A stretch of DNA of 53,601 bases from Halobaculum gomorrense (GCF_900129775.1 NZ_FQWV01000012.1:1-53601); one strand, 5' to 3'. Numbered from the stretch's first letter, positions 14,651 to 43,322 are shown. A program made the numbers and translations. Notes: generated by a model from the sequence alone, not told the origin.

Positions 14651-14742
14651 TGGGACAGGCTCCACCATTAGGACCGAATTCCAAGTCGTGAACCATCGCA
14701 CGGTCGCAGTACTCTCGTGAGTTTCTCTTCAGCTACACAAGA

Positions 14743-14768
14743 TGTATATGCTTTTGCTCCGTAGCAAA
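14743..14768 (+). promoter_or_regulatory. Promoter and operator-like palindrome of the helicase gene
   Basis: A TATA-like TGTATATGC (14743-14751) is followed at once by TTTGCTCCGTAGCAAA. A perfect palindromic version, TTGCTCCGGAGCAA, recurs inside the coding sequence at 15013-15026, and TGCTCCGGAGCA at 15056-15067. The placement over the expected transcription start suggests a repressor site, perhaps for the helicase's own winged-helix domain. Confidence 0.5.
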
Positions 14769-14795
14769 TTCAACAAACGGAGCCCCGATATCACG

Positions 14796-16679
14796 ATGCC
14801 AAAGAACACACAGTATCCATTAGAAGATGTCCGAGAATCTGTCTTTGAACTTCTCTCTGAACAGCCGTTCGTGACGACGGGTGGTGTCGCTAAAGCCCAT
14901 GGAATGGACTCAGAAACCGCTCGACTCAAGCTCAACAAGTTGGTTGAGCAAGATACTTTGAAAACACGTCAGATTGGTGCTAGTGCCCGTGTCTGGTTTT
15001 CTGACGCTAATATTGCTCCGGAGCAAATACTTCAGAAGACAGCCGCAGAAGGATCTGCTCCGGAGCAAATGTCTGAGCGTACACTCTTTTTCCCCAGTCG
15101 CCGAGAGATTGTGGTTGACTCACCTCAAGACGAGACACGCGACATACTGTCACGAGTCGCACATCTAGTTGACTCAACTGGTAGTGGCTTCCTCTACAAA
15201 ATTGACCAAGAAGACATCTGGACAGCGGCATACGACACTTTCGACACTCTCCGTTCTGATCTCCAAGCTGTCGTCGGCGATGAGTGGACAGCGAGTTTTG
15301 AGAGTCGAATTCGAGACGATTGGGACCGTGCACATCAGTTCCGTTTGCGGACGCGAGTTGCAGACTCCAACCAGTACAGCGTACTGGAAGCCGATGATCA
15401 GGACCTCTTCGAGAGCGTTGCGAAGGCAAATCTCGACTACAACACACATTACACGGAATTTCTCTCTGAGACGGCGATGCGGATCAAGAACGGTGCAGAG
15501 GCGAGCGTCAAAGAAGTCCTTTACGAGGAGGGATATCCGGTCCTTGATGAGCGCCGACTCAAGGACGGTGCTTCACTTGAGGTCCAGCTGGGCGACGAAT
15601 TTGATCTCCGTGAGTATCAGCAACGATGGGTCGATCAGTTCGCCGAGCGACGTGCGGGTGTGTTCGTTGGCCCATCTGGCTCGGGCAAAACCGTCGCAGC
15701 GATCGGAGCGATGGAGGCAATTGGTGGGGAGACACTCATTATCGTCCCATCGCGAGAGCTCGCCCAGCAGTGGGTTACAGAGCTAACTGAGAAGACGAAC
15801 CTTGATCAGTCGCAGATCGGGCAGTACCACGGGGGCCAGAAGGAAGTTCGCCCGGTGACGATCGCGACATACGATATTGCCGCGATGAAGCGTCACCGAG
15901 AGTTATTCAACGAGCGAGACTGGGGGCTCGTGATCGCGGATGAATGCCACCATGCTGTCGCCAGCACATGGAAGCGTTTCCGTGAGATTCAATCGACAGC
16001 TCGACTCGGGCTGAGTGCGACACCCGTTCGGGAGAGTGGCGACGCGAAAGAGATCTACACTCTAATTGGACCACCAATCGGTTCAGACTGGCGGGAACTG
16101 TTCGAGGCGGGCTGGGTATCGCAGCCAGAAGTCGAGATGCGGTTGGTAGGCTGGGAATCCGAAAGCGCTCGAGACCAGTACAAACAGGCCGATGGGACCC
16201 AGAAACTCATCGAGGCAGCCCGTAACCCAGCGAAGCAGAGCGCGATCTCTGACCTGCTGGAGCGCCACAGTGGCGAGAAGGCCCTTATTTTCGCAGACTG
16301 GATTGAACAAGGGAAAGACCTCTCCAACGCGCTGAACTTGCCGTTCATCTACGGGGAAACGAGCCACGAGAGACGGGAGTCGATATACCAGCAATTCCGA
16401 GATGGAGACATAGAGGCACTCATCGTCTCTCGGGTCGGCGACGAGGGAATCGATCTACCAGATGCAGAGGTAGCGATACTTGCGTCGACGATGGGATCGT
16501 CACGGTCACAGACTGGTCAGCGAGCTGGTCGAACGATGCGCCCATTCGGCGATGCGGCTGTGTACCTCTTGTTGACGAAAGGAACTGGAGAAGAAGAGTG
16601 GGGCCGCGAGTCGACGCAGTATCTCGCTGAGAAGGGTGTTAGTGTGCAGAAGACAGGGAATAGCGATTCTGTTCCATAG
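14796..16679 (+). CDS. Winged-helix SF2 helicase (XPB/Rad25-like), candidate defence gene
   Basis: 627 residues from ATG 14796. Residues 8-70 form a winged helix (DVRESVFELLSEQPFVTTGG, ETARLKLNKLVEQ). Residues 100-260 are helical and unassigned. The helicase core has Walker A GPSGSGKT (292-299), motif Ia IIVPSRELAQQW, DEAH-box variant DECH (382-385), SAT (407-409) and a C-terminal RecA domain with ALIFADWIEQ, SRVGDEGIDLP and motif VI QRAGRTMRP. This is the XPB-like DNA translocase type common in archaeal restriction and defence loci. It is followed by two genes of the same orientation and a convergent paralogue, forming a compact module next to the CRISPR island. The defence role is inferred from company and domain types. 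Confidence 0.82.
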   Translation: MPKNTQYPLEDVRESVFELLSEQPFVTTGGVAKAHGMDSETARLKLNKLVEQDTLKTRQIGASARVWFSDANIAPEQILQKTAAEGSAPEQMSERTLFFPSRREIVVDSPQDETRDILSRVAHLVDSTGSGFLYKIDQEDIWTAAYDTFDTLRSDLQAVVGDEWTASFESRIRDDWDRAHQFRLRTRVADSNQYSVLEADDQDLFESVAKANLDYNTHYTEFLSETAMRIKNGAEASVKEVLYEEGYPVLDERRLKDGASLEVQLGDEFDLREYQQRWVDQFAERRAGVFVGPSGSGKTVAAIGAMEAIGGETLIIVPSRELAQQWVTELTEKTNLDQSQIGQYHGGQKEVRPVTIATYDIAAMKRHRELFNERDWGLVIADECHHAVASTWKRFREIQSTARLGLSATPVRESGDAKEIYTLIGPPIGSDWRELFEAGWVSQPEVEMRLVGWESESARDQYKQADGTQKLIEAARNPAKQSAISDLLERHSGEKALIFADWIEQGKDLSNALNLPFIYGETSHERRESIYQQFRDGDIEALIVSRVGDEGIDLPDAEVAILASTMGSSRSQTGQRAGRTMRPFGDAAVYLLLTKGTGEEEWGRESTQYLAEKGVSVQKTGNSDSVP

Positions 16680-19759: not shown

Positions 19760-19780
19760 GGTCACGTTCGTCTCCTATAA

Positions 19781-22036
19781 GCTTCAACCCCTCATAGGTA
19801 CATCTGGAACTCCTTCCCGCCTGAGATATGCAGGCACGGCGAGTCGCTTCAACCCCTCATAGGTACATCTGGAACCGAATCAGGCGTGTCGGATAACGAG
19901 TTCGTGAGGCTTCAACCCCTCATAGGTACATCTGGAACACGCACTACGCCGGCCGGGTGACGGTCGACCTCGATGGGCTTCAACCCCTCATAGGTACATC
20001 TGGAACGACACCGACCCCGACGACATGGCTACCGACGAGGAGCTTCAACCCCTCATAGGTACATCTGGAACAACTCGCACATCGGAATTGCTGTTGATGG
20101 TGGTGATGCTTCAACCCCTCATAGGTACATCTGGAACTCGCTTGAGAGCGCCGAGGCCAACGCCACGACCAACAGCTTCAACCCCTCATAGGTACATCTG
20201 GAACCGAGTTGATCCCGTTCTGGAGTGCCTCCGAGGAGTTGCTTCAACCCCTCATAGGTACATCTGGAACTAGGCACTCAATTGACTGTTCTGGGTAAAA
20301 CGGTGTGCTTCAACCCCTCATAGGTACATCTGGAACACCGGCGGGATGCGGTCCTCGCGTAATAGTGAGTCGCTTCAACCCCTCATAGGTACATCTGGAA
20401 CACGTCTTGCGTTATCTGGATGTCCTCATAGGTCCAGCTTCAACCCCTCATAGGTACATCTGGAACGCGCTGTTGCAAGAGGCGTTGCAGCACGCGGAGA
20501 CGCTTCAACCCCTCATAGGTACATCTGGAACTTTCCTCAACAGTTACCGTATCGCCGCCGATCCCGTGCTTCAACCCCTCATAGGTACATCTGGAACAGC
20601 GTCGTGGACCGAACGAACCGCCGCACCCGGCGCTTCAACCCCTCATAGGTACATCTGGAACCGCGTTCGCGGTCGCACGCCGATGTCGAGTCCCGCTTCA
20701 ACCCCTCATAGGTACATCTGGAACCAACCCAAATTCGCCTTGGGCGACTGGCGATGGCTCGCTTCAACCCCTCATAGGTACATCTGGAACTCGCCTTCGC
20801 CCCCGAGCACGATCACGATCCGGTCGCTTCAACCCCTCATAGGTACATCTGGAACACCGACGGCGAGGGGACCACGACGACGGTGGACGGGCTTCAACCC
20901 CTCATAGGTACATTTGGAACACTCCTCGTTCTGCTGCTCCTGGATCGTCAGCCGGTTGCTTCAACCCCTCATAGGTACATCTGGAACGTCGTGCAGGCCA
21001 AGCGGGGCAACACGGACGGGGTGCTTCAACCCCTCATAGGTACATCTGGAACCCCGCCGTTATTCTGTGCCTCTACCGTCGCCCGTTCGCTTCAACCCCT
21101 CATAGGTACATCTGGAACCGTGCGTGCGCTGCTCGAAGAGCGCACGCAGGAGAGCTTCAACCCCTCATAGGTACATCTGGAACAGCGTCGACGACAGCTA
21201 TCACATCGCCGGCAATCTGCTTCAACCCCTCATAGGTACATCTGGAACTCGTGGGGATAGCGCGCTCGCTTCTTCATCAGGACGGCTTCAACCCCTCATA
21301 GGTACATCTGGAACGCGTGTAGCGCGCGCATGGTGTGGATGGGTTATTAGCTTCAACCCCTCATAGGTACATCTGGAACGTACAAGCCCGGCGGAGCCGC
21401 AGCCGACAAGACCGTGCTTCAACCCCTCATAGGTACATCTGGAACTCGTGGGGATAGCGCGCTCGCTTCTTCATCAGGACGGCTTCAACCCCTCATAGGT
21501 ACATCTGGAACGCGTGTAGCGCGCGCATGGTGTGGATGGGTTATTAGCTTCAACCCCTCATAGGTACATCTGGAACGTACAAGCCCGGCGGAGCCGCAGC
21601 CGACAAGACCGTGCTTCAACCCCTCATAGGTACATCTGGAACACCACTGGACCGGAGGTCTGGAGACACTCCTACGAATGCTTCAACCCCTCATAGGTAC
21701 ATCTGGAACCCATCATGGAGGCGTCGATCCCGGCGTTTGACTACGCTTCAACCCCTCATAGGTACATCTGGAACGGTCGTGCAGGCCAAGCGGGGCAACA
21801 CGGACGGGGTGCTTCAACCCCTCATAGGTACATCTGGAACGCGCCCAGTTTTCCCCGGCATACAAACATGAAATGAGCTTCAACCCCTCATAGGTACATC
21901 TGGAACTCGTTATCCACGAAACGGTAGGGCATCTCGATGGGGCTTCAACCCCTCATAGGTACATCTGGAACTTCGCGTTCTCACCCGTGGCGTCGACGAG
22001 TGCGCTGCTTCAACCCCTCATAGGTACATCTGGAAC
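19781..22036 (-). CRISPR. CRISPR array 1 (35 repeats, 34 spacers)
   Basis: Thirty-five 30-bp repeats, on the plus strand GCTTCAACCCCTCATAGGTA followed by CATCTGGAAC; one (20891) has CATTTGGAAC. The transcribed strand is minus: the repeat there ends GGGGTTGAAGC, giving the usual 8-nt 5' handle, and a leader homologous to that of array 2 lies at 22037-22138. Spacers are about 34-37 nt. A three-spacer block is duplicated in tandem (21249-21445 and 21446-21642), and one spacer occurs twice with a 1-nt length difference (20988-21022, 21775-21810). Unusually, the distal repeat is perfect, so the old end was probably cut off. The repeat differs from array 2 by one base. Confidence 0.98.
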
Positions 22037-22138
22037 CATCCGGTATCTCACGGACACAGCCCTCCTATAGCCCCATCTCACACAAGTGTTTCCGTCGACC
22101 CGTAATTCCCCGCTATCCCCCGGGGGGTCGACGGAACT
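22037..22138 (-). promoter_or_regulatory. Leader of CRISPR array 1
   Basis: The 102 bases between the cas2 stop and the first repeat. Read on the minus strand they match the array 2 leader over most of their length, including CCCCCCGGGGGATAGC, GGGAATT and ACACTTGT. An 11-bp perfect inverted repeat, TCCGTCGACCC/GGGTCGACGGA (22091-22101 and 22125-22135), can form a hairpin or bind a protein. The leader is the expected site of promoter activity and spacer integration. Confidence 0.8.
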
Positions 22139-22399
22139 TCACGTGAACCGACTCCCTGGTTCGTCTGCATTACCGAACGTAGTGTACTCGACAGCTGCCG
22201 CCTGCTCCGCTTCAAATACAACAACAGAGTCGTCGGGTTCCAGCTCCGTCTCGATCTCATTTTTCAAGCCAGTCAACTGTCCCTTGGTCAGTTCACCGAC
22301 GAACACAGAATACTGGAGATGCTCAAGCTGCCGTCGGAGCAACTTCCGGTAGATCCGAGTCCGCTCAGCTGGGACGTCGTAAATAACGATGACGAACAT
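22139..22399 (-). CDS. cas2: Cas2
   Basis: 86 residues from ATG 22399 (MFVIVIYDVPAERTRIYRKL). The start overlaps the cas1 stop (TGATG). Asp8 in VIYDVP is the conserved acidic residue of the ferredoxin-like Cas2 fold; the middle reads LEHLQYSVFVGELTKGQLTG. Cas2 dimers bridge Cas1 dimers in the spacer integration complex. It ends GSRFT-stop, and leader 1 begins at once, so the array may be read through from the adaptation operon. Length is normal for the family. Confidence 0.97.
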   Translation of the reverse strand: MFVIVIYDVPAERTRIYRKLLRRQLEHLQYSVFVGELTKGQLTGLKNEIETELEPDDSVVVFEAEQAAAVEYTTFGNADEPGSRFT

Positions 22400-23394
22400 C
22401 ACCACCACCGCTCGGTCGGCCGGTACGGCTCCCCAGTTAACACGTGCTTTTTGAGACTGTACACGTCCGTCTGGACTAACGTCTTGTAGCTCACTTTCCG
22501 TTTCAACCGTGGATGCTCGACCGTTTCATCGAGCGTTTGCTCAAACTCCTCAAGCACTGTCTTGCGTCCAGATTCCGTGAGGAGACACCCATCAAGCTCG
22601 GATTCGAACTCATCAACGCCCAGCTGCTGTCGGTTGATTACACGGAATGCAACGCGGTCGGCGAGGATCGGTTTGAAAATGTCCGCGATATCGAGGGAAA
22701 GTGTGTAGCGGCGCTCACCGGGTTCGTGAACGTAGCCAATAGTCGGATCGAGCGCAGTCTTTCTGATCGCAGACACGCATGTGGCATACACCATCCCGTT
22801 CAAGAACGAAATAAGCGCGTTCGCCTCGTTTGTCGGCGGGTTGTACTCCCGTCGCGTCAGTTCGAACGGATCGCGAAGGATTTCATCGAAACACCGGTAG
22901 TATACTTTCCGGGCTGTGGCTTCCGTCCCACGGAGTTCCTGAATGTCGTCGATTTCAGCGACCTGCTCTTTCAGATCTGCGAGTCGATCGACAGCTCCCC
23001 CGAACGATCCTTGTCGACCGTCGTAGTACCGAACGTTGACCCGCATATTGTGGATACTCGCCGAGATGATATCTCGAGCAATCGGCATCCGTCGGGCATG
23101 ATCATCGTATGCCAATACTTGTTCGACGACAGTGTTACCCGAGGTTTGCGAGCGCTTGGGAAGGTAGGACCCGTTATAATAGTCGTTCCATCCGAATACA
23201 TGGATAGGAACACCGTGGTCGTTGAGCAATCCTAATGCACGCGTATTGAATTCGATTTGGCCGTGCAGATATAGCGTATCGATGCTCTCAACTGGGAGGT
23301 GCTTCTTGCCTCCATCCAGCAAATCAATTCGGAGCGTATCCTCGTGCCGCTCTAATCGGCCGTCCGCGAAGATGTGGTGGTTCGGTTTCGTCAT
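22399..23394 (-). CDS. cas1: Cas1 integrase, type I-B
   Basis: 331 residues. The metal-binding triad is present: Glu158 in LRGTEATARKVYY, His223 in GYVHEPGERR, and Asp235/Asp238 in LSLDIADIFKP. The N-terminal beta domain includes LPVESIDTLYLHGQIEFNTR. Cas1 with Cas2 cuts and joins new spacers at the leader end of the arrays. It is spaced four bases from cas4 and overlaps cas2, the standard adaptation order cas4-cas1-cas2. It appears full length and intact. Confidence 0.98.
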   Translation of the reverse strand: MTKPNHHIFADGRLERHEDTLRIDLLDGGKKHLPVESIDTLYLHGQIEFNTRALGLLNDHGVPIHVFGWNDYYNGSYLPKRSQTSGNTVVEQVLAYDDHARRMPIARDIISASIHNMRVNVRYYDGRQGSFGGAVDRLADLKEQVAEIDDIQELRGTEATARKVYYRCFDEILRDPFELTRREYNPPTNEANALISFLNGMVYATCVSAIRKTALDPTIGYVHEPGERRYTLSLDIADIFKPILADRVAFRVINRQQLGVDEFESELDGCLLTESGRKTVLEEFEQTLDETVEHPRLKRKVSYKTLVQTDVYSLKKHVLTGEPYRPTERWW

Positions 23395-23398
23395 CGTC

Positions 23399-23941
23399 TC
23401 ACACCCAGCAGAGATCCTGGTACAGACAGGCGTCGCAGTACGGTTTCTTTTCTAGTGCCGGCGGGGAATCCTGCTCGACGGTCTCGATGATTCCCAGAAT
23501 TGTGGCCTCAACTTCCTCACGGCCCTCTGCGTCGAGCTCGACTTGTTCGCGCTTTCGCTCTCGTGGGTACGCGAGGACTCCGTCACGTTCGATATCGAGT
23601 ACTTCCTCAAGATACCACAGGTAGTAGAGCAGTTGCATTCGCGCCGGTTTCTCGAGTGCAGATGAGACCTTGACCTCCATCACGTCACCCGAGTCAAGTA
23701 AATCGAGTTGGAGCCGATCGTTAATTTGGTAGGAGCGGCGGCGCCCCTCGTAGCTCGTCTCATCAACGTGTGTTCCTCGCTGGATATTCGTCGCCTCTCG
23801 GTCGATATCGACGCCGCGAGACATGAACCAGAGCTCGCGTCGGCAGACGTGATAATACTGAACCATCAGCCCAGTAATCCGATTCTCCGGTTCTCGATGT
23901 GGATCGCGTTCGTCCGCGATATATTCTGGTATAGATGACAT
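23399..23941 (-). CDS. cas4: Cas4 nuclease
   Basis: 180 residues from ATG 23941 (MSSIPEYIADERDPHREPEN); upstream in-frame codons to 24001 do not look conserved. RecB-like nuclease motifs: an Asp in LQLDLLDSGD and the E-V-K of VMEVKVSSALEKP, then the helix ARMQLLYYLWYLEE. The iron-sulphur cysteines are in YYHVCRRELWF and C-terminal YCDACLYQDLCWV. Cas4 trims pre-spacers next to the PAM. It is first in the minus-strand adaptation operon, whose promoter should lie in the divergent region after 23942. Confidence 0.95.
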   Translation of the reverse strand: MSSIPEYIADERDPHREPENRITGLMVQYYHVCRRELWFMSRGVDIDREATNIQRGTHVDETSYEGRRRSYQINDRLQLDLLDSGDVMEVKVSSALEKPARMQLLYYLWYLEEVLDIERDGVLAYPRERKREQVELDAEGREEVEATILGIIETVEQDSPPALEKKPYCDACLYQDLCWV

Positions 23942-24120
23942 GATTCGGGTAACCATTTGTTCCCGGCTAGAAATAATTACGCACCGTACAATCGAGTTCA
24001 AAACGCAACCCGATATCTTAGCAGATTTCTAATTTCACTCTACAGCAAACATTCATGTAGTGGCCAGAACTGGTTCGATATTGAAGTGATCCTCAAAAAA
24101 CCACCAACTCGGGTCACATC
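23942..24120. promoter_or_regulatory. Divergent cas promoter region
   Basis: The 179 bases between cas4 (minus) and cas6 (plus) are AT-rich compared with the surroundings (for example TAGCAGATTTCTAATTTCAC). Both cas operons must start here. I did not find a single clear TATA box for either direction or an obvious palindrome. Confidence 0.55.
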
Positions 24121-24933
24121 ATGCGCCTGTTAATCCGACTGGAGGCACAGGCGGACGCCGCCTATCAGTCAGCGTACCACCACAAGCTTCGTGGGCGGAT
24201 TTGGCGAGGACTCGATGGAACAGAGTTCGATGGCTTACACGACGCAGACCATCCGATCGGCTTGTGTTTCTCGAACGTCTTTCCGTGGGGTCCGATCGAG
24301 GAAGGCGACGAGCGCACAGTCCTCGTGTCGGCAACTGACCGTGACCTCTTAGGGGCCGTTGCTGAGGGGATAGTCAACGATCGGGAATTTAATGTCGGTG
24401 AGATGCCGTTCTGGGTGACAGAGGTCACCACAGTCACACCTGACGTTGGCGAGCCTGGCACTCGGGGAACGATCGAATCCGGCACAGGGCTACTCGTGCG
24501 AATCCCTCCGTGGAAGACTGACGAGTACGGCATCGACCACGATGGGAATGAGTCCGTTTTCTGGCGCCCGGAGCACTCGATGAAGCCGCTTAAGACCCAA
24601 TTAGAGAACAACCTCGATAAGAAACATGGTCTGCTCTGTCCAGACCACCTCCCTAGTCCAAGCGAACGGGAGGGCGATCTCTTTGAGGATCTTGAGTTGA
24701 TCAAGACGTTTTCCATCCCAGTTGAGGTGACACAGGGGGTTGAGCGAACGATGGTCCTGTCGAAGTGGCGCTTCGGCTATCGCGTGCGCGATGAGCACCA
24801 TCGGCGTCACCTCAATCTCGCACTCGACGCTGGCCTCGGTGAACGGAACGCGCTTGGACTCGGGTTCGTGAACATCGTGAATGGGTCGAAAGAACGGCCC
24901 GGCGTGACCGCTGGATCTGTGGAGGGGCGATAA
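24121..24933 (+). CDS. cas6: Cas6 crRNA-processing endoribonuclease
   Basis: 270 residues. N-terminal MRLLIRLEAQADAAYQSAYH, then LHD (His40), and SNVFPWG match the Cas6 pattern. The C-terminus carries the glycine-rich loop GLGERNALGLGFVN that grips the repeat RNA. Cas6 cuts the pre-crRNA within each repeat, leaving an 8-nt handle (here expected GTTGAAGC). It is first in the interference operon, with the next start overlapping its stop (TAATG). Confidence 0.95.
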   Translation: MRLLIRLEAQADAAYQSAYHHKLRGRIWRGLDGTEFDGLHDADHPIGLCFSNVFPWGPIEEGDERTVLVSATDRDLLGAVAEGIVNDREFNVGEMPFWVTEVTTVTPDVGEPGTRGTIESGTGLLVRIPPWKTDEYGIDHDGNESVFWRPEHSMKPLKTQLENNLDKKHGLLCPDHLPSPSEREGDLFEDLELIKTFSIPVEVTQGVERTMVLSKWRFGYRVRDEHHRRHLNLALDAGLGERNALGLGFVNIVNGSKERPGVTAGSVEGR

Positions 24934-27152
24934 TGTTCCTCGACGAATCGACCCTTCAGTCATACCTCCCTGACGGAGCGATCTCGTCACTACGGCGGAT
25001 CGAGGCGCTCTATGGAGCGCTCGCCGAAGCCCGGGAGGCCTCGGACCGCGGTGGCGAGCCAGGTAAGTTCGGACTGTATCTCACCCCAAGTGAACTCGAC
25101 GAGTTCGTCTCCTCGGGAGAGGAAGATCGCGTACTCGTGACTGTCCGGGTCGACCTCACAGAAGACTCGCCCGTCCTTGAGAACGTGGACATCGAGCCGC
25201 TTCGTGAGGACTACGTCCCCAAACTCGGGTTCTCGCGATACCCATGGGGTCGAGGAATCGATAACAGCATCACCCGCCGCGGTGCCAAAGGTGGCTCCGA
25301 TGCCGGGACTGCGCAACGATACTGTCTCGAATGTCTCCAACGCTGGACCAATGGGACAGAGAAGGAGCCGGCTGTGGGTGCCCTCGCCGATGAGCACCCC
25401 GATGGCTGGGTGATCGATGGACTCCGAGAACTCGGGCTCCAGGAAGACACCGATGAGCGACTCGGCGAGCTCATCGACCCGAAATTCCCTACTGACTCGC
25501 CGCGTGTCGTCGCGACGGTCGCAGTTCGTCTCCCAGAGGAACGTCTAGACCACCCACCCGATGGTGACCCGGATGCAGAGGGCTACTACTACCCCGGGCA
25601 GCTGCACGTGCTCAACGCTGGGATGCGCGCGCGTAAAGAGGAGAAGCTCGCACGGAAGAACCTCCCAGATAGCGCAGATCCCTCTCGGGGAGATGCCGCC
25701 TGTATGGTTACTGGAGAGAAAACTCGCGTGTTCGGAACAACGGAGGATCCGCTCGCGTTCTTCACCGTCCAACACGCGGAGAAATTTCCCAGACTATCTA
25801 AGTCCAATTCCTGGCGCACACATCCAGTCTCCTCGGAGGCGGCGCTCCTGATGCAGTCTGGAGCTTCCCTGCTTGAGGGGTGTAGTGACACGCGAAACGG
25901 GCTTCGCGTGTACACAATCCCATACTTTCGGGAGATGAACACCCAACGGGCCGAGCTCCTCTATGAGGCAGTCAGGGGAGACTCGGTTTCAATGAGCCAG
26001 GTGTATGAGGATATCACCGAGGGAGACGTAGGTGAGTTCGTCTCTGAAGAACTCCGATTTTACGTCATTGGCGTTCGTGATGACAGCGGCGATATCAACG
26101 TCTTATTCGAGGTTCCGAACGCCGATATCTACTGGCCGACAGTCGTTGCAAAGGCTCACGGGGCAGTCCTTGACGTCAAGCGTTCAACAACGTTCTCTCT
26201 GGTTGCTGGGCTCGCTCCGGACGAGAACTGGTACGGGCTCTCGCCGAGTGCAGACCAGAACCAGTACGTTGAATCGATCACTGACGGCCTGTACGCCTTC
26301 GGGACCATGCCCGATCCGGGGACCGATTCCCCTACGACAGATGATCCACGCGAGTGGCTGACGCAGTCGCTTCTCACCGGGACACCGGTAGATGTTGATC
26401 GGCTCCTTGCTGCGTTCGTCGACCGGCTTGTGCAGGAACGTCGGGATGAGCAGCCGATCGGCCGTCATGTTAAAACACAGTATGCACAGTTCGAGGCGCT
26501 CTCCCGTGCGGGTCTCCTCGAGGCACCGGCTGACCGACCAGAGTTCGACCATGCAACAGTACCTATGACAAATCACGAGACGACGACCGAGGAAACAGCA
26601 GCCGACGGTGGCGTGTTGACGCCAGAGTCGGTCGAACCAACCGATATCGCTCCCGACGGTGACCCGTCAGCAACACAGATCCGAAAATTCCGCCTCAAGA
26701 ACTTCCTCCGCGATCGGGCAACACTCCAAAATAACCCCGAGCGGCGTGGGGCGTTCCTAATCGGCGTGCTCGTCGGACAGCTGAGTGACCATCAGTCAAC
26801 GGCAGAGTCGAACGGGGGGCGGGGTATGAATCGAACCATCCGTGATCGCCACCCACCCGAACAGTTGACCGCTGATCGGATTGAGAGATTGTATACCGGA
26901 GATCTCGAACGACTTCCACGGGTGTACGGCCGCGACAGAGGAACCGGACCACTGTTCCCGGAGACGAGAAACCTGCTTCGGGATACGCTAGCGGACGCGA
27001 AGCCAGACGACTGGGAGCTTCCTGTCCATGACCTCCGGTTCTTCTACGCACTCGGCGTCGAGTTCGGGGAGAGCGCCGGATACCAGGCGTATGAGCTTGC
27101 CCAACAGCTCGATATCGAAACCAACGACGCGCCTGAGGAAGAGCCCGCATAA
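24933..27152 (+). CDS. cas8b: Cas8b (Csh1), Cascade large subunit
   Basis: 739 residues, starting MFLDESTLQSYLPDGAISSL. Putative zinc cysteines appear in YCLECLQRWTNGTEK and ACMVTGEKTRVFG. The C-terminal region (NFLRDRATLQNNPERRGAFLIGVLVGQLSDHQ) is the helical bundle of the Csh1 type, which acts as the fused small subunit. Cas8b recognises the PAM and anchors the crRNA 5' end. Position between cas6 and cas7 and its length fit haloarchaeal type I-B. Confidence 0.93.
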   Translation: MFLDESTLQSYLPDGAISSLRRIEALYGALAEAREASDRGGEPGKFGLYLTPSELDEFVSSGEEDRVLVTVRVDLTEDSPVLENVDIEPLREDYVPKLGFSRYPWGRGIDNSITRRGAKGGSDAGTAQRYCLECLQRWTNGTEKEPAVGALADEHPDGWVIDGLRELGLQEDTDERLGELIDPKFPTDSPRVVATVAVRLPEERLDHPPDGDPDAEGYYYPGQLHVLNAGMRARKEEKLARKNLPDSADPSRGDAACMVTGEKTRVFGTTEDPLAFFTVQHAEKFPRLSKSNSWRTHPVSSEAALLMQSGASLLEGCSDTRNGLRVYTIPYFREMNTQRAELLYEAVRGDSVSMSQVYEDITEGDVGEFVSEELRFYVIGVRDDSGDINVLFEVPNADIYWPTVVAKAHGAVLDVKRSTTFSLVAGLAPDENWYGLSPSADQNQYVESITDGLYAFGTMPDPGTDSPTTDDPREWLTQSLLTGTPVDVDRLLAAFVDRLVQERRDEQPIGRHVKTQYAQFEALSRAGLLEAPADRPEFDHATVPMTNHETTTEETAADGGVLTPESVEPTDIAPDGDPSATQIRKFRLKNFLRDRATLQNNPERRGAFLIGVLVGQLSDHQSTAESNGGRGMNRTIRDRHPPEQLTADRIERLYTGDLERLPRVYGRDRGTGPLFPETRNLLRDTLADAKPDDWELPVHDLRFFYALGVEFGESAGYQAYELAQQLDIETNDAPEEEPA

Positions 27153-27177
27153 TTACCATCCACAACACCACCACACC

Positions 27178-28245
27178 ATGTCTGAATCCACCACCACAGT
27201 CGAGAATCGCTCCGAAATCGTGTTCCTGACCGACGCTCAGGACTGCAACCCGAACGGCAACCCGCTGGGAGAAAATCGCCCCCGCGTCGATCAAGAAACA
27301 GGCCAAGGGATCGTAACCGACGTCCGGCTGAAGCGTTACCTCCGTGACCAACTGGTCGACGATGGCCACTCGGTGTTCGTGCGCAAGACAGAGGAAGGTA
27401 AGAGTACCTCCCGCGCGCAGCTAGCACTGAACGCACTCGGCGATATCGACGATCCAGAAGAAGTGGAGGCGATCGAAAATGTCCGTGATGAGTTCCTTGA
27501 CAGCGCTGTCGACGTGCGCTATTTCGGCGCAACCCTGAGTTTCAATGCAGATGAGGAAGGGCTCGAGGAAGCGGTACGATCGGCGTTCGGAGAAGGGAAC
27601 TACACCGGTCCTGTCCAGTTCTCACCCGCTCGGTCGTTAAACGCCGTCCAACTGAACGAGGAATCGAATACACTCACGAGCGTCATCGCGACCGGTACGG
27701 AGCAGGAAGTCGGTGGCTTCGGGCTCGATGATCACCGAATCAAGTACGGCCTGTTCCCGTTCCACGGTGTCGTCAACGAACACGGTGCACACGATACGCA
27801 CCTGTCCGCGGCCGACGTGAAGCGACTGGACACGCTATGCTGGCGTGCCATGAAGAATCAGACCATTTCGAGAAGTAAGGTCGGACAGGAACCTCGCCTG
27901 TACCTTCGTGCAGAGTTCCAGACGGACGGCTACCACGTAGGTGATCTCCACAACGGTATCCAGCTGGATACGGACAATTCAAAGCCCGACCGGGAACTCC
28001 GCAATGTCACGGATGTCGCCGTAGACGTAACCGCACTCGTTGATCGGCTCGCCTCTGTCGCCGACCACATTGAGACGGTCCACGTCATCGGTGATGAGTT
28101 CCTGGATATCACATACGACGGAGACACACACTCAGCTGCAGCGTTCGGCGAGTTGCTTGAGGAACATAATGTTCCGGTCCACGAAATCGACGTCTACGAC
28201 GAATTCAAAACGACGCTTCCGCCGGAGACGGACGCCCAGCACTGA
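27178..28245 (+). CDS. cas7: Cas7 (Csh2), Cascade backbone
   Basis: 355 residues from ATG 27178 (MSESTTTVENRSEIVFLTDA). The Csh2 opening SEIVFLTDAQDCNPNGNPLG is typical, followed by VTDVRLKRYLRDQL, VRYFGATLSF and the RNA-binding region GPVQFSPARSLNAVQLNEES. Cas7 polymerises along the crRNA spacer. The gap to cas8b is 25 bases and to cas5 three bases. It appears intact. Confidence 0.96.
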   Translation: MSESTTTVENRSEIVFLTDAQDCNPNGNPLGENRPRVDQETGQGIVTDVRLKRYLRDQLVDDGHSVFVRKTEEGKSTSRAQLALNALGDIDDPEEVEAIENVRDEFLDSAVDVRYFGATLSFNADEEGLEEAVRSAFGEGNYTGPVQFSPARSLNAVQLNEESNTLTSVIATGTEQEVGGFGLDDHRIKYGLFPFHGVVNEHGAHDTHLSAADVKRLDTLCWRAMKNQTISRSKVGQEPRLYLRAEFQTDGYHVGDLHNGIQLDTDNSKPDRELRNVTDVAVDVTALVDRLASVADHIETVHVIGDEFLDITYDGDTHSAAAFGELLEEHNVPVHEIDVYDEFKTTLPPETDAQH

Positions 28246-28248
28246 CTC

Positions 28249-29112
28249 ATGGCCGCTGAACAGACAGCCGAGAGCGGGTATACGGCAGGCGAATCCGTGC
28301 CGACGATCACGGACGGGCTCCCTGATCGCTGCCTCGTCTGTACGATTAGCGGCGACTGGGGTCATTTCAGGCGGGTCGACCGCACGGTGACGAAACAGAC
28401 CTATCGACTTCCCCCGCGAACGACTATCGCCGGTTTACTCGCAGCGATCGTTGGCGTCGGTCGCGACGAGTACTACGAGACGTTTAATTCAGACCAGTCA
28501 GCGATCGGGATCGAACCGATCGGGGATCTGCGAACGACGACTCAGCCGACCCTAGGGCTAGGGACCAACCCAAGCGAGACGTACGACCGGGCAGGGGGGA
28601 CTGGCCAGACAACGGTCCAAGTTGAATTTCCGGACAGCACCGATAATCGTCAGATCCACAGCTACGAGTACGTCGTGGATCCGACGTACCGGGTCTACAT
28701 CGCTACAGAGGACGAAGAATTTTATCGGGACCTCCGAACACACCTCGAACGAGGCACCAGCCACTACACGCCGACACTCGGCCTCTCCGAGTTACTCGCG
28801 ACTGTCTCGGTTCCCGAGTGGACCACTGGAGGTGAGACTACTGTCGAGCCGGTCAACCCAGCCGAACTCGGTTCAACAGCTGTGATCGATTCAGCATTGC
28901 CAGTCGCGGTCGACAGTGTCGTCCCTAAGCCGGGTACGTCACATCACGTAGAACGACTGCCAGCGTTCATGGAAGCTGACGGCGGGTATCGACGAACGAC
29001 CGGATTCGCCGATTATGCGTTCACGACGGGCGAGGAACTCGAAGTCAGGGCTGCTGGACTCAAGGACGTCGCTCTCGGACGCCTCGATGGGCGAACGATC
29101 GCGTTCTACTGA
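28249..29112 (+). CDS. cas5: Cas5 (Cas5h), Cascade subunit
   Basis: 287 residues. The Cas5 signature is clear: RCLVCTISGDWGHFRRVDRT, then TYRLPPRTTIAGLLAAIVGVGRDEYYE. Cas5 caps the 5' handle end of the crRNA. Its stop overlaps the cas3 start (TGATG), so the two are co-translated. The N-terminal 20 residues are polar and probably disordered. Confidence 0.95.
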   Translation: MAAEQTAESGYTAGESVPTITDGLPDRCLVCTISGDWGHFRRVDRTVTKQTYRLPPRTTIAGLLAAIVGVGRDEYYETFNSDQSAIGIEPIGDLRTTTQPTLGLGTNPSETYDRAGGTGQTTVQVEFPDSTDNRQIHSYEYVVDPTYRVYIATEDEEFYRDLRTHLERGTSHYTPTLGLSELLATVSVPEWTTGGETTVEPVNPAELGSTAVIDSALPVAVDSVVPKPGTSHHVERLPAFMEADGGYRRTTGFADYAFTTGEELEVRAAGLKDVALGRLDGRTIAFY

Positions 29113-31931
29113 TGAGCGCTGAGATCGACCCGGATGCGATCGTCGCCCGAGTCGACGAAAACAGCATCCCGACTGAGACGCTGACTGCCCATGGACAGCA
29201 TGTTGCAACCCGAGCATGCTGGCTCGCCGGCCTCGATGACTCAGTCAATACACAGGAATCGGTAGTCTTCGATACCGTCGCGAGGCTTCATGACGTTGGG
29301 AAAGCGGTTCCGGCATTTCAGGCGTATATCAGAGGTGAGCCGTACGCGGGCCAACAGAAGCATACTTACCACGCTCGACTCGGAGCCTTCGCAGTCGCAC
29401 ACACCCTTGCTCAGACAGGCGCTGCAGACAAAGACATCCTCGCCGGGTGGGCAGCTGTTCTCCGGCACCATGGGGCACTACCAGATCTTGTCGAGGAGAC
29501 GATCAGGGTCATCAGGGCTGAATGGCGCGAACAGAACAACGCATGGGTCACCACCCAAATAGAAGCGATCGATGAGGTCGATCGGTCCCGATCCGTGTTT
29601 GATAGCTTCCTTCGAGATGCATCCGACGGAACAACCGGATGGGATGCCTTCCGGGAGGCAATTGCCAGTGAGTCCGTTCATAAAGCGCTTCTCTCGGCAC
29701 TCGGACTCCCGGCCCGCTGTCCTCGAAAAGAGTGGGCGACAGAGGCAGAGATTCCTGCCCAAACCTATGACCGCGCGCTCCGTCTGTGGAGTTCGCTCAC
29801 TCTCGCCGACAAGACCGTCGCGTCCGGAAGCGTCGAACGAGAACACCTCACACCGGAATCGCTGTCGCTGAGCCCGCTAGAGTCGTACATCGATGACGCG
29901 CTATCCGACTCGGACGTCGGTGAAGAGCAAATCCAACAGGCGTCATCAGGCATTGCTCAGCCGGACGATGAAACGTCGCTCAACGCGCTACGTGAATCCG
30001 CTCGCAGAAGGGTCAAGGATGCGGCTCCAGAATTGCTCGATCATGAGGTCGGTCTCCTCACCCTCCCGACTGGCCTGGGAAAGACATTTAGCGGATTGAC
30101 CGGGGCGTTCACCCTTCGGGACGAAGTTCAATTTCAACGTGATCTTGAGACGCCGCCACTCGTCGTGTACGCGCTTCCGTATACGTCAATCATCGAGCAG
30201 ACCAGAGAAGTGTTTGAAACGGAGGTATTTGACACCGACCCGACCGGACGGGCATTCACGACGCATCACTACTTGACCGAGACCGTCACGTACACTGACG
30301 ACGAACGGGGTGATGAGGGAAGCGCCAACAAGGATCAAGACGAATCGCGGGCGAAGCTGCTCGGCGAAAGTTGGCGTTCAGGTGTCGTATTGACGACGTT
30401 CGTCCAGCTAATCGAGAGCCTGGCGGGCCCGTCAAACGCGGCAGGGCTCAAATTGCCAGCGTTGCATGACGCAGTCATTATTCTCGACGAACCTCAGGCA
30501 CTTCCGAAGCCGTGGTGGGACGCTGTGCGGCGTCTGTCACGGACACTCATCGATGAATTCGACGCGCGGATCGTGTCGATGACCGCGACACAGCCGACGC
30601 TGTTCACCGCCAGTGACATTGACACCATGTCGCTGCTCTCCTCATCCGAGGACGATGCGTTCGAACGCCGGGCCTACGACTCTGTTTCTCGCGTCCAGTA
30701 TCGAGTAGATGATTCGATCGCGACGCTGACTGACTCCAATACGGATAACCCAGTAAGCCATACAGAGGCGGCCGGCCGTCTGATCGAAGCCGCACTCCCG
30801 TCGGAGCAGATGGATGACCCAGCATCAGTATTATCGGTCTGTTCAACAGTCGCGAGTTCACGGACGCTCACTGACCGCGTTACTGAGCAGGCTCCGCTCT
30901 TTGGCGTTGACACGACCCATATCGGTTCTGAGTACGAGGCGGCGCTCTCGGAACTCGATACTGCCGGGAACAACTCTACGCCAGAGTCTCCACCGGACGC
31001 AGAGGCGGTAGCTCACGCAACACTGTCTCGACTCGGGTTCACCGAGAACAAAGACGGAGAGTGGGAGTGCACAGACGATTGGGGAGATCGACTGCTCGTC
31101 GGGACATTCAATGCTCGCTATCGTCCACTCGATCGTCGGGCACTCATTCGAATCGCCGACATCATCTCAACGACAGGGATTCCGTTTGTGTTCGTTTCGA
31201 CCCAAGCGATCGAAGCCGGTGTGGATATCAGTTTCACAAACGTGTTCCGGGATATTGCTCCGCTCGACAGCGTCGTCCAAACAGCAGGCCGCTGTAACCG
31301 GTCGTTCGAGTGGGGCGTTGACGGCGGGACGGCGACTGTGTGGTGTCTTGATGCAGCCGACGGCGAGGACTCAACGCTGCCGGCAGAATATATCTACCCC
31401 GAGAGCGAGCATCTAAATCAGATTGCGACACTCCTCTGGGATGCTGCCATGGAAGCCGATGAGGAGTTAATTCCCGCGTCCACATTCGAACGGGACGTCG
31501 TGCCGGCGTATTTCGAGTTCGTTGAGGACCGTAGCTTCCTCAACGACGATCTGAAGCTGTGGATCGACGAGTGCGAAGCGGACCAGCTCGGTCACGAGTC
31601 ACTCCTCGGCGACGAGTACGAGACGGTCGATGTGCTTATCGCGGCAACGGATGCGGACACTGCCCGGATCAACCAGCTCCGGGAGCTGTTCGCGGAGTAC
31701 GAGGGACGCGGGTACGAGCGGCTCCGTGAACTCAGTTGGATGCGTGTTTCAGTCTCTGTACGGACGATTGAGGAGCTTCAAATGCACTCGCGAGTCGATG
31801 GCTCTGGGCGACAGTCGTCGTCTGGTGTCGATGTCTTCGGTCATCCCGTCGGCCACGGCAACGGGTCATATGATCTGGCTGGCGGCGGGTTCTTTGTCAC
31901 CAAAACCGATGTCGTGAACCGATTTACGTGA
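29112..31931 (+). CDS. cas3: Cas3 HD nuclease-helicase
   Basis: 939 residues. HD nuclease: His60-Asp61 in ARLHDVGKAVPAF, further metal ligands in KHTYHARLGAF and RHHGALPD (His119-His120). Helicase: Walker A LPTGLGKT (318-325), DEAH-type motif DEPQ (459-462), motif III SMTATQP, then VFVSTQAIEAGVDISF and motif VI TAGRCNR. Cas3 is recruited by Cascade after R-loop formation and degrades the target DNA strand. It ends NRFT-stop and leader 2 follows directly. The HD and helicase parts are fused, as usual in type I-B. Confidence 0.97.
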   Translation: MSAEIDPDAIVARVDENSIPTETLTAHGQHVATRACWLAGLDDSVNTQESVVFDTVARLHDVGKAVPAFQAYIRGEPYAGQQKHTYHARLGAFAVAHTLAQTGAADKDILAGWAAVLRHHGALPDLVEETIRVIRAEWREQNNAWVTTQIEAIDEVDRSRSVFDSFLRDASDGTTGWDAFREAIASESVHKALLSALGLPARCPRKEWATEAEIPAQTYDRALRLWSSLTLADKTVASGSVEREHLTPESLSLSPLESYIDDALSDSDVGEEQIQQASSGIAQPDDETSLNALRESARRRVKDAAPELLDHEVGLLTLPTGLGKTFSGLTGAFTLRDEVQFQRDLETPPLVVYALPYTSIIEQTREVFETEVFDTDPTGRAFTTHHYLTETVTYTDDERGDEGSANKDQDESRAKLLGESWRSGVVLTTFVQLIESLAGPSNAAGLKLPALHDAVIILDEPQALPKPWWDAVRRLSRTLIDEFDARIVSMTATQPTLFTASDIDTMSLLSSSEDDAFERRAYDSVSRVQYRVDDSIATLTDSNTDNPVSHTEAAGRLIEAALPSEQMDDPASVLSVCSTVASSRTLTDRVTEQAPLFGVDTTHIGSEYEAALSELDTAGNNSTPESPPDAEAVAHATLSRLGFTENKDGEWECTDDWGDRLLVGTFNARYRPLDRRALIRIADIISTTGIPFVFVSTQAIEAGVDISFTNVFRDIAPLDSVVQTAGRCNRSFEWGVDGGTATVWCLDAADGEDSTLPAEYIYPESEHLNQIATLLWDAAMEADEELIPASTFERDVVPAYFEFVEDRSFLNDDLKLWIDECEADQLGHESLLGDEYETVDVLIAATDADTARINQLRELFAEYEGRGYERLRELSWMRVSVSVRTIEELQMHSRVDGSGRQSSSGVDVFGHPVGHGNGSYDLAGGGFFVTKTDVVNRFT

Positions 31932-32033
31932 GAGTTCGTCGACCCCCCGGGGGATAGCCGGGAATTGGGGGTCGACCAAAACACTTGTCTGAATCGCACC
32001 AGTAGCGGGCCTGTGTCGGTGTAATACCGCATG
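31932..32033 (+). promoter_or_regulatory. Leader of CRISPR array 2
   Basis: The 102 bases between the cas3 stop and the first repeat, homologous to leader 1. Shared blocks include CGTCGACCCCCCGGGGGATA, GGGAATT, GTCGACC, ACACTTGT and a final ATACCG-ATG. A 10-bp inverted repeat GTCGACCCCC/GGGGGTCGAC lies at 31938-31947 and 31967-31976. The two leaders have equal length. Confidence 0.8.
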
Positions 32034-33434
32034 GTTCCAGACGTACCTATGAGGGGTTGAAGCAGTCCTTGCGGGCGGCCTCCGGCGAGAGCCCGGAGTT
32101 GTTCCAGACGTACCTATGAGGGGTTGAAGCGTTGCCTATGCACGCCAGAATGTCCAGCCGACGTTGTTCCAGACGTACCTATGAGGGGTTGAAGCAGATA
32201 CTGCAACACAGACGCCTGCACTCTCGCTTTCGTTCCAGACGTACCTATGAGGGGTTGAAGCACTCGACTGACGCCAGCCGAGCACATCCGCGTCGCGCGT
32301 TCCAGACGTACCTATGAGGGGTTGAAGCACTGTGCGATCACTACGTGAGTGATAGCAGATTCGTTCCAGACGTACCTATGAGGGGTTGAAGCGTGACAGA
32401 CGACGGCGACGTTCGCATTGAAGACGAAGTTCCAGACGTACCTATGAGGGGTTGAAGCGAGTCCGAGAACATCGCGGTGGACGAAGAAGGGGTTCCAGAC
32501 GTACCTATGAGGGGTTGAAGCGGTGTGAATAGCCTCTCGCAAAGCGTTCCGATCAACGTTCCAGACGTACCTATGAGGGGTTGAAGCAGGACTGTGACAC
32601 GCCCTGGCCCCAAGAGAAAAGTGTTCCAGACGTACCTATGAGGGGTTGAAGCTCAATGAGTGACCCACGCGACCGAAAGCGTGCCGTGTTCCAGACGTAC
32701 CTATGAGGGGTTGAAGCAAGCGGATCGGGGACGAATATTGAGACAGACCAGAGTTCCAGACGTACCTATGAGGGGTTGAAGCAACGTCAGTCACCGGGCG
32801 CTCCAGGAGTTCTCGGAGGTTCCAGACGTACCTATGAGGGGTTGAAGCAGCGCGACCTCCCACGCGTCAGTGTCGGGGGTGTCGGTTCCAGACGTACCTA
32901 TGAGAGGTTGAAGCACGGGAGATGTGGGGGGTTTCATCGGCGTGACGGTTCCAGACGTACCTATGAGGGGTTGAAGCGCTCCGAGAGTGCAAAGCGTGTG
33001 CTCAAAGCCAACGTTCCAGACGTACCTATGAGGGGTTGAAGCTGCCCGCCGAACTCGAGCCGCTCGGCTCGTCGCTGCGTTCCAGACGTACCTATGAGGG
33101 GTTGAAGCGTCCATGGTCTCGGCTGCCCGAGGGACGCGGCCGCGGTTCCAGACGTACCTATGAGGGGTTGAAGCGTGGTGTTCTTCTCATGAACGCCCGA
33201 CGCTACCTCGTTCCAGACGTACCTATGAGGGGTTGAAGCGTCCATGGTCTCGGCTGCCCGAGGGACGCGGCCGCGGTTCCAGACGTACCTATGAGGGGTT
33301 GAAGCGTCGCGACGGACGACGGGCTCGCCGTGATCGAAGAGTTCCAGATGCACATCTGAGTGATTGAAGCACCGAGCATCTGAGCAATGGCGACGGCGGC
33401 GACCAGTTCAAGACGCACCCATGAGGCGTTAAGC
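32034..33434 (+). CRISPR. CRISPR array 2 (20 good + 2 degenerate repeats)
   Basis: Thirty-bp repeats on the plus strand, GTTCCAGACGTACCTATGAG followed by GGGTTGAAGC, from 32034 to 33305, then two decayed repeats at 33341-33370 and 33406-33434. Repeat 14 (32885) has one change (GAGAGGTTG). Decay at the far end is normal for the oldest part. One 36-nt spacer occurs twice (33109-33144 and 33240-33275), separated by a single other spacer. The repeat differs from that of array 1 by one base (C for T at position 9). Transcription runs away from cas3. Confidence 0.98.
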
Positions 33435-41721: not shown

Positions 41722-41992
41722 CGGGGAGGGGGGTGCGACCAATGTAAGCCTCAAGAAGGAGGGCGGGGCTGCAGATCAACCTCCCACGTTACCACTTCAC
41801 TGCACAGCACTAGTCTGGTACGGTCCGTATACTAACCAATGGATTATAAAACTAGGCCACAGTCAGCACCGACACAACCGCCTCAGCGCTTCTCCGGCCC
41901 CTCTCTCGTGAGTTTACATTGGACGAACCCCCCTCTCCCCCTTCGACACACCAAAAGCTCAACTACGAGGTTTACATCGGACATACCCCCCG
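41722..41992. repeat. Origin recognition boxes, upstream set
   Basis: Three boxes: an inverted copy GGGGGGTGCGACCAATGTAA (about 41728-41747), and two direct copies, GTTTACATTGGACGAACCCC (41912-41931) and GTTTACATCGGACATACCCC (about 41970-41989). They share GTTTACAT-GGAC-ACCCC. The G/C run next to a conserved core is the shape of haloarchaeal ORBs. Together with the copies after orc1 they define the plasmid origin. Confidence 0.82.
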
Positions 41993-42056
41993 CTACCGGA
42001 CGGCCACCCACCACGCGGACGGAAGGGTTAACTCGTCCCCGTTAGAGCCACGAGGC

Positions 42057-43322
42057 ATGCGCTCGTTCGGCGGCGACGACACCATCTTCGCCGACATGGA
42101 TCGGTTAAATCCGAACACACAGACCTACCAACCCGAGACGCTCCCCGAGCGTGAGGCTGAACTCAACGACCTCCACTCAACGCTCGAACCCGCTGCTCAG
42201 GGATACGACCCGATCAACGCGTTCGTCTACGGTCCCACTGGGCAAGGCAAAACCGTCGGGATCGGCCTGAAGACGACCCAACTCCAGCAGTACGCTGACA
42301 AGCACGACAAGGATGTCTGCGTGGTCCACGTCCGGTGTAAGGGGATGGAAAAGTCGTACCACGTGATGACGCACCTGATCAAGGCGCTTCGCGAGAAGCA
42401 GTACGGACCAGGTGAAGAACTCCCGAGCGGCCATCCGAAAAAGACGCTCTTCGAGATGATCATCTCGGAGCTCGAGGCGATCGGCGGCACCGTGATCGTC
42501 ATACTCGACGAGATCGACGCGATTGGTAACGACGACTACGTTCTGTATGAACTCTCTCGAGCGAACCCTGAGGACGTGCGCCTCTCGTTGATCGGTATCA
42601 CGAACGACTACCGATTCCGCGACAATCTCAACGCCGACGTCCGCTCCTCACTCGGCGAGGACGAAATCGAGTTCGCTCCCTACGACGCGAATCAGCTCCG
42701 GAACATCCTCGCCCGGCGTGCCGCTGGCGGCCTTCGCGATACGTCGTTCTCCGACCCTGACAATCCGTTTGAAACCCTCGAAAGCGATGTCCTCGCTGAA
42801 GATGCGATCCCACTGGCATCGGCATACGCCGCGCAAGACTCCGGCGACGCTCGCGAGGCGATCAAGCTCATGTTCCGGGCATGCCGGTTTGCTGACGATG
42901 CCGGCGAGGCCGCGGTCACGGCCGAGCACGTACAAGAGGCACACGAGTACTTGGAGCGCGCCGCCGTCGAGCGCGGGATTCGGTCGCTCCCGATGCAGCG
43001 CGCACTTGCGCTGCTCACCGTGACACAGGCGACGATCACCGGCACGAAGGCGGCAGAGACGAAGGACCTCCACGACATCTATGAAGTGTTCTGCAACGAC
43101 GTCGACGCCGACGCGATCTCCGAGCGCCGGTTCCGCGACAAGCTCAACGACCTCGCCGACAGCGGGATCCTCACGAAAGAGACCCGGGGCCGCGGACAGG
43201 GGCTTGGGAAGACGAATCGCTACGAACTCGACGTGAAAATCCAGACGGTCCTCGATAACCTCGAACCAGATTCACGACTTGGCGAGTTCGTCGAAGAAAC
43301 GCTTCGTCCTCGCCACAAGTAA
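42057..43322 (+). CDS. orc1/cdc6: Orc1/Cdc6 replication initiator
   Basis: 421 residues from ATG 42057 (MRSFGGDDTIFADMDRLNPN); an upstream in-frame start at 41919 would lie inside an ORB and is unlikely. AAA+ motifs: Walker A GPTGQGKT (59-66), Walker B VILDEID (148-154) and sensor 1 LIGITNDYRF. The C-terminal winged helix (LHDIYEVFCNDVDADAISER, FRDKLNDLADSGILTKETRG) binds origin boxes. It should load MCM at the flanking ORBs. It appears intact and is the likely main replication gene. Confidence 0.95.
   Translation: MRSFGGDDTIFADMDRLNPNTQTYQPETLPEREAELNDLHSTLEPAAQGYDPINAFVYGPTGQGKTVGIGLKTTQLQQYADKHDKDVCVVHVRCKGMEKSYHVMTHLIKALREKQYGPGEELPSGHPKKTLFEMIISELEAIGGTVIVILDEIDAIGNDDYVLYELSRANPEDVRLSLIGITNDYRFRDNLNADVRSSLGEDEIEFAPYDANQLRNILARRAAGGLRDTSFSDPDNPFETLESDVLAEDAIPLASAYAAQDSGDAREAIKLMFRACRFADDAGEAAVTAEHVQEAHEYLERAAVERGIRSLPMQRALALLTVTQATITGTKAAETKDLHDIYEVFCNDVDADAISERRFRDKLNDLADSGILTKETRGRGQGLGKTNRYELDVKIQTVLDNLEPDSRLGEFVEETLRPRHK

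Follow-up and report, generated by a model that had tools for sequence, protein, structure and literature searches.

A C-terminal peptide shared by Cas2 and Cas3 of type I-B CRISPR-Cas loci and its possible role in docking Cas3 on Cas1

The Halobaculum gomorrense DNA analysed here, a stretch of 53,601 nt referred to as the window, contains a complete type I-B CRISPR-Cas locus; the region under study spans positions 22037–32033. The cas2 and cas3 genes of this locus both end in R-F-T and a stop (CGG TTC ACG TGA in cas2 and CGA TTT ACG TGA in cas3) with a leader directly after, as a preliminary description had recognised. Cas2 and Cas3 are not homologous. Comparison of gene ends among relatives indicates that the shared R-F-T is a conserved C-terminal peptide, hereafter the tail, on these two unrelated type I-B proteins. 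The explanation that best accounts for the observations as a whole, and which we consider somewhat probable, is that the tail of Cas3 mimics that of Cas2 and docks on Cas1. A broader form of this proposal, in which the type I-B Cas3 tail plugs into Cas1 across archaea and bacteria and so tethers interference to acquisition without a gene fusion, has about an even chance of being right.

The ends of cas2 and cas3 were read in loci that carry Cas1, for which 391 genomes of the haloarchaeal class were searched (101 with a match), and in 46 loci from GTDB contigs. Two large clades were distinguished: clade A, to which the window belongs (Cas1 73–80% identical), and clade B (Cas1 about 60%). Cas2 ends in [RK]FT in all 24 intact clade A loci. 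Cas3 ends in RFT in 23 of them and in RFS in one, followed by 0–2 residues; the motif, preceded by a variable linker, has its R and F unchanged in 24/24. Most clade A loci have cas4 immediately behind cas3 and no leader between the two. In clade B, Cas2 mostly ends in [RQ]FL, and Cas3 in R[FIL][LIF] or QF[LI]. Under the rule [RQKH][FLIV][LTISF] plus 0–2 residues, which was written after the tails had been seen, the motif is present at the end of Cas3 in 101/101 and of Cas2 in 99/101 intact haloarchaeal loci, and at the end of Cas1, Cas4, Cas5, Cas6, Cas7 and Cas8b in 0–1 of 101. The Cas3 tail thus has the Cas2 motif of its lineage, which the other Cas proteins lack. Scored over four residues with BLOSUM, Cas2 tails reach 13.1 against Cas3 tails, compared with −0.4 against internal segments of Cas3 and −2.6 to 3.2 against the tails of other Cas proteins. 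A tail is closer to its partner's tail in the same lineage than to partner tails of other lineages. In AlphaFold2 models, residues 82–86 of Cas2 have a pLDDT below 50 and residues 931–939 of Cas3 a mean of 47; the low confidence at both C-termini predicts disorder, as expected of a free peptide. Per-residue co-variation of Q and R between Cas2 and Cas3 was considered as an independent proof and was dropped, with only 2–5 independent changes and 12 loci pairing a Cas2 Q with a Cas3 R.

The preliminary description had proposed that a leader and its array were duplicated or inverted by recombination with an edge inside the 3′ end of a cas gene, a reading under which either Cas2 or Cas3 might not normally end in R-F-T. 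Duplication and inversion are indeed seen in relatives (below), but an edge within the gene is made unnecessary by the homologue ends: R-F-T is normal for both Cas2 and Cas3, irrespective of a leader. The R-F-T codons of cas2 and cas3 in the window share 7/9 bases, while two independent draws of R, F and T codons from the codon usage of the locus predict 7.07, so the likeness of the DNA on the coding side is a product of the shared amino acids alone. Synonymous matches within a locus amount to 2.25 of 4, as against 2.10 after permutation (p = 0.22; 20 loci). On the homologue ends and the synonymous-site test, R-F-T was rejected as a DNA recombination scar, and in general short shared gene ends should not be taken as such scars before protein conservation has been checked.

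A related possibility is that recombination or gene conversion between the leader regions copied the end of cas2 onto cas3, with its edge inside the last codons. The geometry of the window would suit this. There alone Cas3 stops exactly at RFT and TGA, with the conserved leader core 8 nt on, a spacing like that of cas2 (6–14 nt) and unlike that of other cas3 genes (17–101 nt). Also, the two leaders of the window are closer in their 5′ halves (46/53 identical) than in their 3′ halves (40/54). Set against this, Cas2 and Cas3 alike normally end in R-F-T whether or not a leader follows, shared synonymous bases are not in excess, and a small deletion from a junction like that of locus L111 (ACGTTCTGAGATCTCGTTTCCGTCGACC) accounts for the window geometry equally well. 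We therefore regard such copying as unlikely to be the source of the shared ending; the cas3 junction of the window itself may have come from gene conversion over a short stretch that begins with the last codon, or from a small deletion.

The occurrence of the Cas3 tail follows that of the adaptation module. Effector loci without cas4-cas1-cas2 were gathered by a separate cas3 search, and their Cas3 proteins end otherwise (SIE, STEI, DTEV, LREQ, VFGVR and others). Among 130 haloarchaeal loci, 102 have both the tail and an intact module, 27 have neither, one has the tail only and none has the module only; these counts include two manual corrections (L228 scored as tailless, and L254 scored as intact since its contig ends), and the uncorrected counts are 101/26/3/0. 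Within this set the Cas2-type tail on Cas3 is restricted to loci with an intact module, with one exception. Judged from the gene content of these loci, the Cas3 tail is present almost only where the adaptation module is intact. On the Cas3 tree there are five independent contrasts, of which 4.8 are concordant on average and none is opposite (median sign-test p 0.0625). Tail losses are also nested among tail-bearing relatives: L245 ends in SNQSQF and its sister L108 in SDRFTL, and the genome of L245 has no Cas1 by Pfam; further nested losses (L229/L247) fall within clade A. When adaptation genes do adjoin a tailless Cas3, either cas1 is a fragment (18–254 aa) or cas4 is incomplete or absent, and Cas2 often still bears the tail. 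The Cas2 tail type is likewise kept in loci where no Cas3 was found. In seven loci (L098, L144, L192, L227, L236, L246 and L251), effector modules with a tailless Cas3 adjoin truncated cas1 or cas4 remnants; these loci look as if adaptation-less type I-B modules had replaced the resident effector genes.

Outside haloarchaea, loci with a Cas1 of the same family (TIGR03641) were compared. Written as Cas3/Cas2, the tails are SESNFL/NLSNFL in Bacteroidales, SDWGIL/NIGMIL in Kapaibacterium, EFEDIL/PIDDII and DDIL/DDII in methanococci, DDWNFI/PIEFIL in Lentimicrobiaceae and DDWNII/SIGFII in Bacillota, and comparable pairs also occur in Clostridia. When the Cas3 tails were permuted among 31 lineages, p was 5e-5; among the 23 non-haloarchaeal lineages it was 0.004. 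Two of the Bacillota loci bear on the possibility that the shared adaptation partner of the tails is Cas4 or another protein, and not Cas1. In haloarchaea every tail-bearing intact locus also has cas4, so that Cas1 and Cas4 are inseparable there. On the other hand, L280 and L286 have no cas4 between cas3 and cas1 (the span searched; the rest of these genomes was not searched for cas4), and their tails still match (EGFI/SDFL and ENFF/DAFL), which points to Cas1 or Cas2 as the partner rather than Cas4. A Cas4-type partner is accordingly an improbable choice.

For Cas1 as the docking site, which we infer from the sequence comparison, published work provides a context. In types II-A and I-E, Cas2 binds Cas1 through its C-terminus (PMC12216489). 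Cas1-2 and an unfused Cas3 interact, and type I-F has Cas2 and Cas3 as a single fused protein (PMC12259127). Type I-B primed adaptation requires Cas3 with Cas1, Cas2 and Cas4; in Haloferax volcanii, adaptation needs Cas1, Cas2 and Cas4, and priming needs Cas3 (PMC7521656). In the proposed mechanism, the Cas2 tail would grip Cas1, and Cas3 would have evolved an imitation of this tail with which it could dock on one of the Cas1 subunits in the Cas1-Cas2(-Cas4) integrase. In primed adaptation, the nuclease degrading targeted invader DNA would thereby be tied to the integrase that takes up the pieces, and the docking would be a non-covalent counterpart of the type I-F Cas2/3 fusion. The proposal resembles type I-F in that Cas3 is physically coupled to the Cas1-Cas2 integrase there (PMC12259127). 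However, the type I-F coupling is a covalent Cas3-Cas2 fusion, while the genes of the window are separate and their products have in common a C-terminal motif of 3–5 residues. In the type I-E primed acquisition complex, as Dillard et al. 2018 is cited in PMC12259127, Cas1-2 interacts with Cas3 with no fusion. The literature searched describes no shared Cas2/Cas3 tail, and the tail analysis here was not extended to type I-E. For the handover of DNA fragments from Cas3 to Cas1-Cas2 in primed adaptation outside type I-F, a motif found on both Cas2 and Cas3, and usually gone from Cas3 without adaptation genes, is a candidate interface only a few residues long, which could be addressed in genetically tractable haloarchaea such as Haloarcula hispanica and Haloferax volcanii.

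Cascade is another conceivable partner. The tail could be a docking peptide for Cas8b, Cas5 or Cas7, shared by Cas2 because Cas2 too visits Cascade; Cascade binding is necessary for Cas3 action, and the Cas3 tail is flexible. Nevertheless, Cas3 is tailless in loci with a complete Cascade and no adaptation genes, and the Cas2 tail type persists where no Cas3 was found, which makes Cascade docking very unlikely. A C-terminal degron or other general signal gained convergently by the two proteins is scarcely credible: C-termini that are short and hydrophobic are common, but the other Cas proteins of the locus lack the motif, it is missing from Cas3 in loci without the adaptation genes, and the tail co-varies by lineage between Cas2 and Cas3.

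Several observations weigh against docking of a Cas2-like Cas3 tail on Cas1. The fit between the two tails is inexact, as clade A Cas3 mostly has 1–2 residues beyond RFT. L231 and its sister L230 have tail-like Cas3 ends (THRLL and SHCFL) where the genome lacks Cas1. Conversely, Halorussus aquaticus, outside the 130-locus set, has an intact module in one copy but a Cas3 that ends in SSRIHR, and the Bacillota loci L272, L281, L284 and L287 have cas4-cas1-cas2 and no recognisable Cas3 tail. Outside haloarchaea the motif consists mostly of two terminal hydrophobic residues, which is a weak signature, and the list of lineages used for the permutation was picked by hand. With five independent contrasts only, the sign test is unable to reach 0.05, and the 130-locus table depends in part on the corrections made to L228 and L254. 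The binding partner of the tail is itself something that we infer. Finally, no description of a shared Cas2/Cas3 tail was found in the literature searched, most subscription journals lying outside that search, and given this incomplete coverage an earlier description may exist.

In the window, cas2-cas1-cas4 on the minus strand stands head to head with cas6-cas8b-cas7-cas5-cas3 on the plus strand, with one leader and array behind cas2 and a second leader and array behind cas3:

19780–22036, minus strand: CRISPR array 1, repeat GTTCCAGATGTACCTATGAGGGGTTGAAGC, 34 exact repeats and one variant
22037–22138, minus strand: leader 1, 102 nt, immediately after the cas2 stop
22139–22150, minus strand: codons of the Cas2 C-terminal tail, R-F-T and stop, CGG TTC ACG TGA
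22139–22399, minus strand: cas2, 86 aa (TIGR01573)
22399–23394, minus strand: cas1, 331 aa, Cas1b/HMARI (TIGR03641)
23399–23941, minus strand: cas4 (TIGR00372)
24121–24933, plus strand: cas6 (TIGR01877)
24933–27152, plus strand: cas8b (Csh1; TIGR02591)
27178–28245, plus strand: cas7 (Csh2; TIGR02590)
28249–29112, plus strand: cas5b (TIGR02592)
29112–31931, plus strand: cas3, 939 aa, HD nuclease and helicase (cas3_HD TIGR01596 above its cut-off, helicase models below theirs)
31920–31931, plus strand: codons of the Cas3 C-terminal tail, R-F-T and stop, CGA TTT ACG TGA
31932–32033, plus strand: leader 2, 102 nt, immediately after the cas3 stop
32034–33305, plus strand: CRISPR array 2, repeat GTTCCAGACGTACCTATGAGGGGTTGAAGC, about 20 repeats

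The stop codons are at 22139–22141 (cas2, minus strand) and 31929–31931 (cas3, plus strand), and the repeats of the two arrays are one base apart. Assignment to type I-B follows from matches above cut-off to TIGR02591, TIGR02590, TIGR02592 (cas5h) and TIGR03641 (HMARI-type Cas1). The Cas3 protein has both an HD nuclease and a helicase part, the latter by matches below the cut-offs, and its homologues are annotated as Cas3''. Cas1 and Cas2 of the window are matched by chains of PDB 7ei1.

The two 102-nt leaders lie in inverted orientation and, as the preliminary description had stated, are homologous: over the stretch between stop codon and first repeat, 86/107 alignment columns (about 80%) are identical. 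Their local score is 122, compared with a maximum of 36 among 2,230 random segments of the window, and in a repeat search no inverted repeat of the region was longer than the one pairing 22005–22150 with 31920–32065 (146 nt, 81% complementary). The similarity of this non-coding sequence is real homology. As a finding it is ordinary, since homologous leaders flanking a type I-B cassette are already known from Haloferax volcanii, where, as in the window, two arrays (P1 and P2) with near-identical leaders, 95% similar as published, flank the cas genes (PMC7521656).

Leaders of one locus are usually nearest relatives (81% identical in the window, 89% in L111, 97% in L117 and 77% in L054), which implies that the copies exchange sequence or are re-duplicated. 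L114 departs from this pattern: its leaders are 88% identical to each other, yet its cas2 leader shares 94% identity with the leader behind cas3 in L113, a near-identical locus. An old positional duplication of the leader was rejected as a general rule, as leaders of the same locus are usually closer than leaders in the same position elsewhere. In relatives the leader core begins 17–101 nt past the Cas3 tail (on the cas3 side, 92 nt after the stop in L117 and 44 nt in L067); this variation means that the edge of the leader is not tied to the end of the gene. The two leaders would be recognition sites for one integrase, kept alike by mutual exchange, a matter separate from the tails.

In canonical loci, such as those of Haloarcula hispanica pHH126 and Haloferax alexandrinus, cas4 comes directly after cas3. 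The window, by contrast, has its effector operon inverted relative to cas4-1-2 and a leader after cas3. Halorussus caseinilyticus and Halorussus halobius, the latter adjoining the window on the Cas3 tree, also have a leader and array directly after cas3, and their Cas3 proteins end in NRFTT or SRFTF; unlike in the window, their effector genes are co-directional with cas4-1-2. The arrays of Halorussus caseinilyticus lie after cas2, in the interval from cas3 to cas4, and upstream of cas6; the last of these, which points outward, is an extra inverted leader and array that the window lacks. In Halorussus halobius, oppositely oriented leaders stand on both sides of cas6-cas3. In Halorussus aquaticus, cas6-cas3 is inverted; cas3 and cas2 are each followed by a leader, and another stands between cas6 and cas4. 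These arrangements indicate that leaders are duplicated and inverted together with the effector module, with edges outside the genes. If the effector module was turned round between leaders of opposite orientation, the arrangement of Halorussus caseinilyticus could have become that of Halorussus aquaticus, and subsequent loss of the middle array could have given the divergent gene order of the window.

The SSRIHR-ending Cas3 of Halorussus aquaticus (L326; G731:C4:371373), whose congeners end in RFT(F/T), lies at a rearranged leader junction and is a natural tail mutant. The plasmid NZ_CP100402.1 of the same species carries the entire CRISPR locus twice (L052 and L064), ~364 kb apart near both ends; one of the copies has a broken cas1, and the contig looks over-circularised.

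The adaptation module has a second conserved C-terminus. Cas1 of the window (22399–23394) ends in a conserved W-W (RWW, MWW or AWW), as it does in almost every haloarchaeal locus and in many loci elsewhere. In array 1, a segment of 197 bp comprising three repeat-spacer units is duplicated in tandem (window 21218–21611), a recombination event within the array, and one spacer of array 2 is duplicated. The genes around the locus include a family B DNA polymerase, an XPB-like helicase and an Orc1/Cdc6 protein (window 12443–16676 and 41919–43319), which suggests a replicon or an integrated element.

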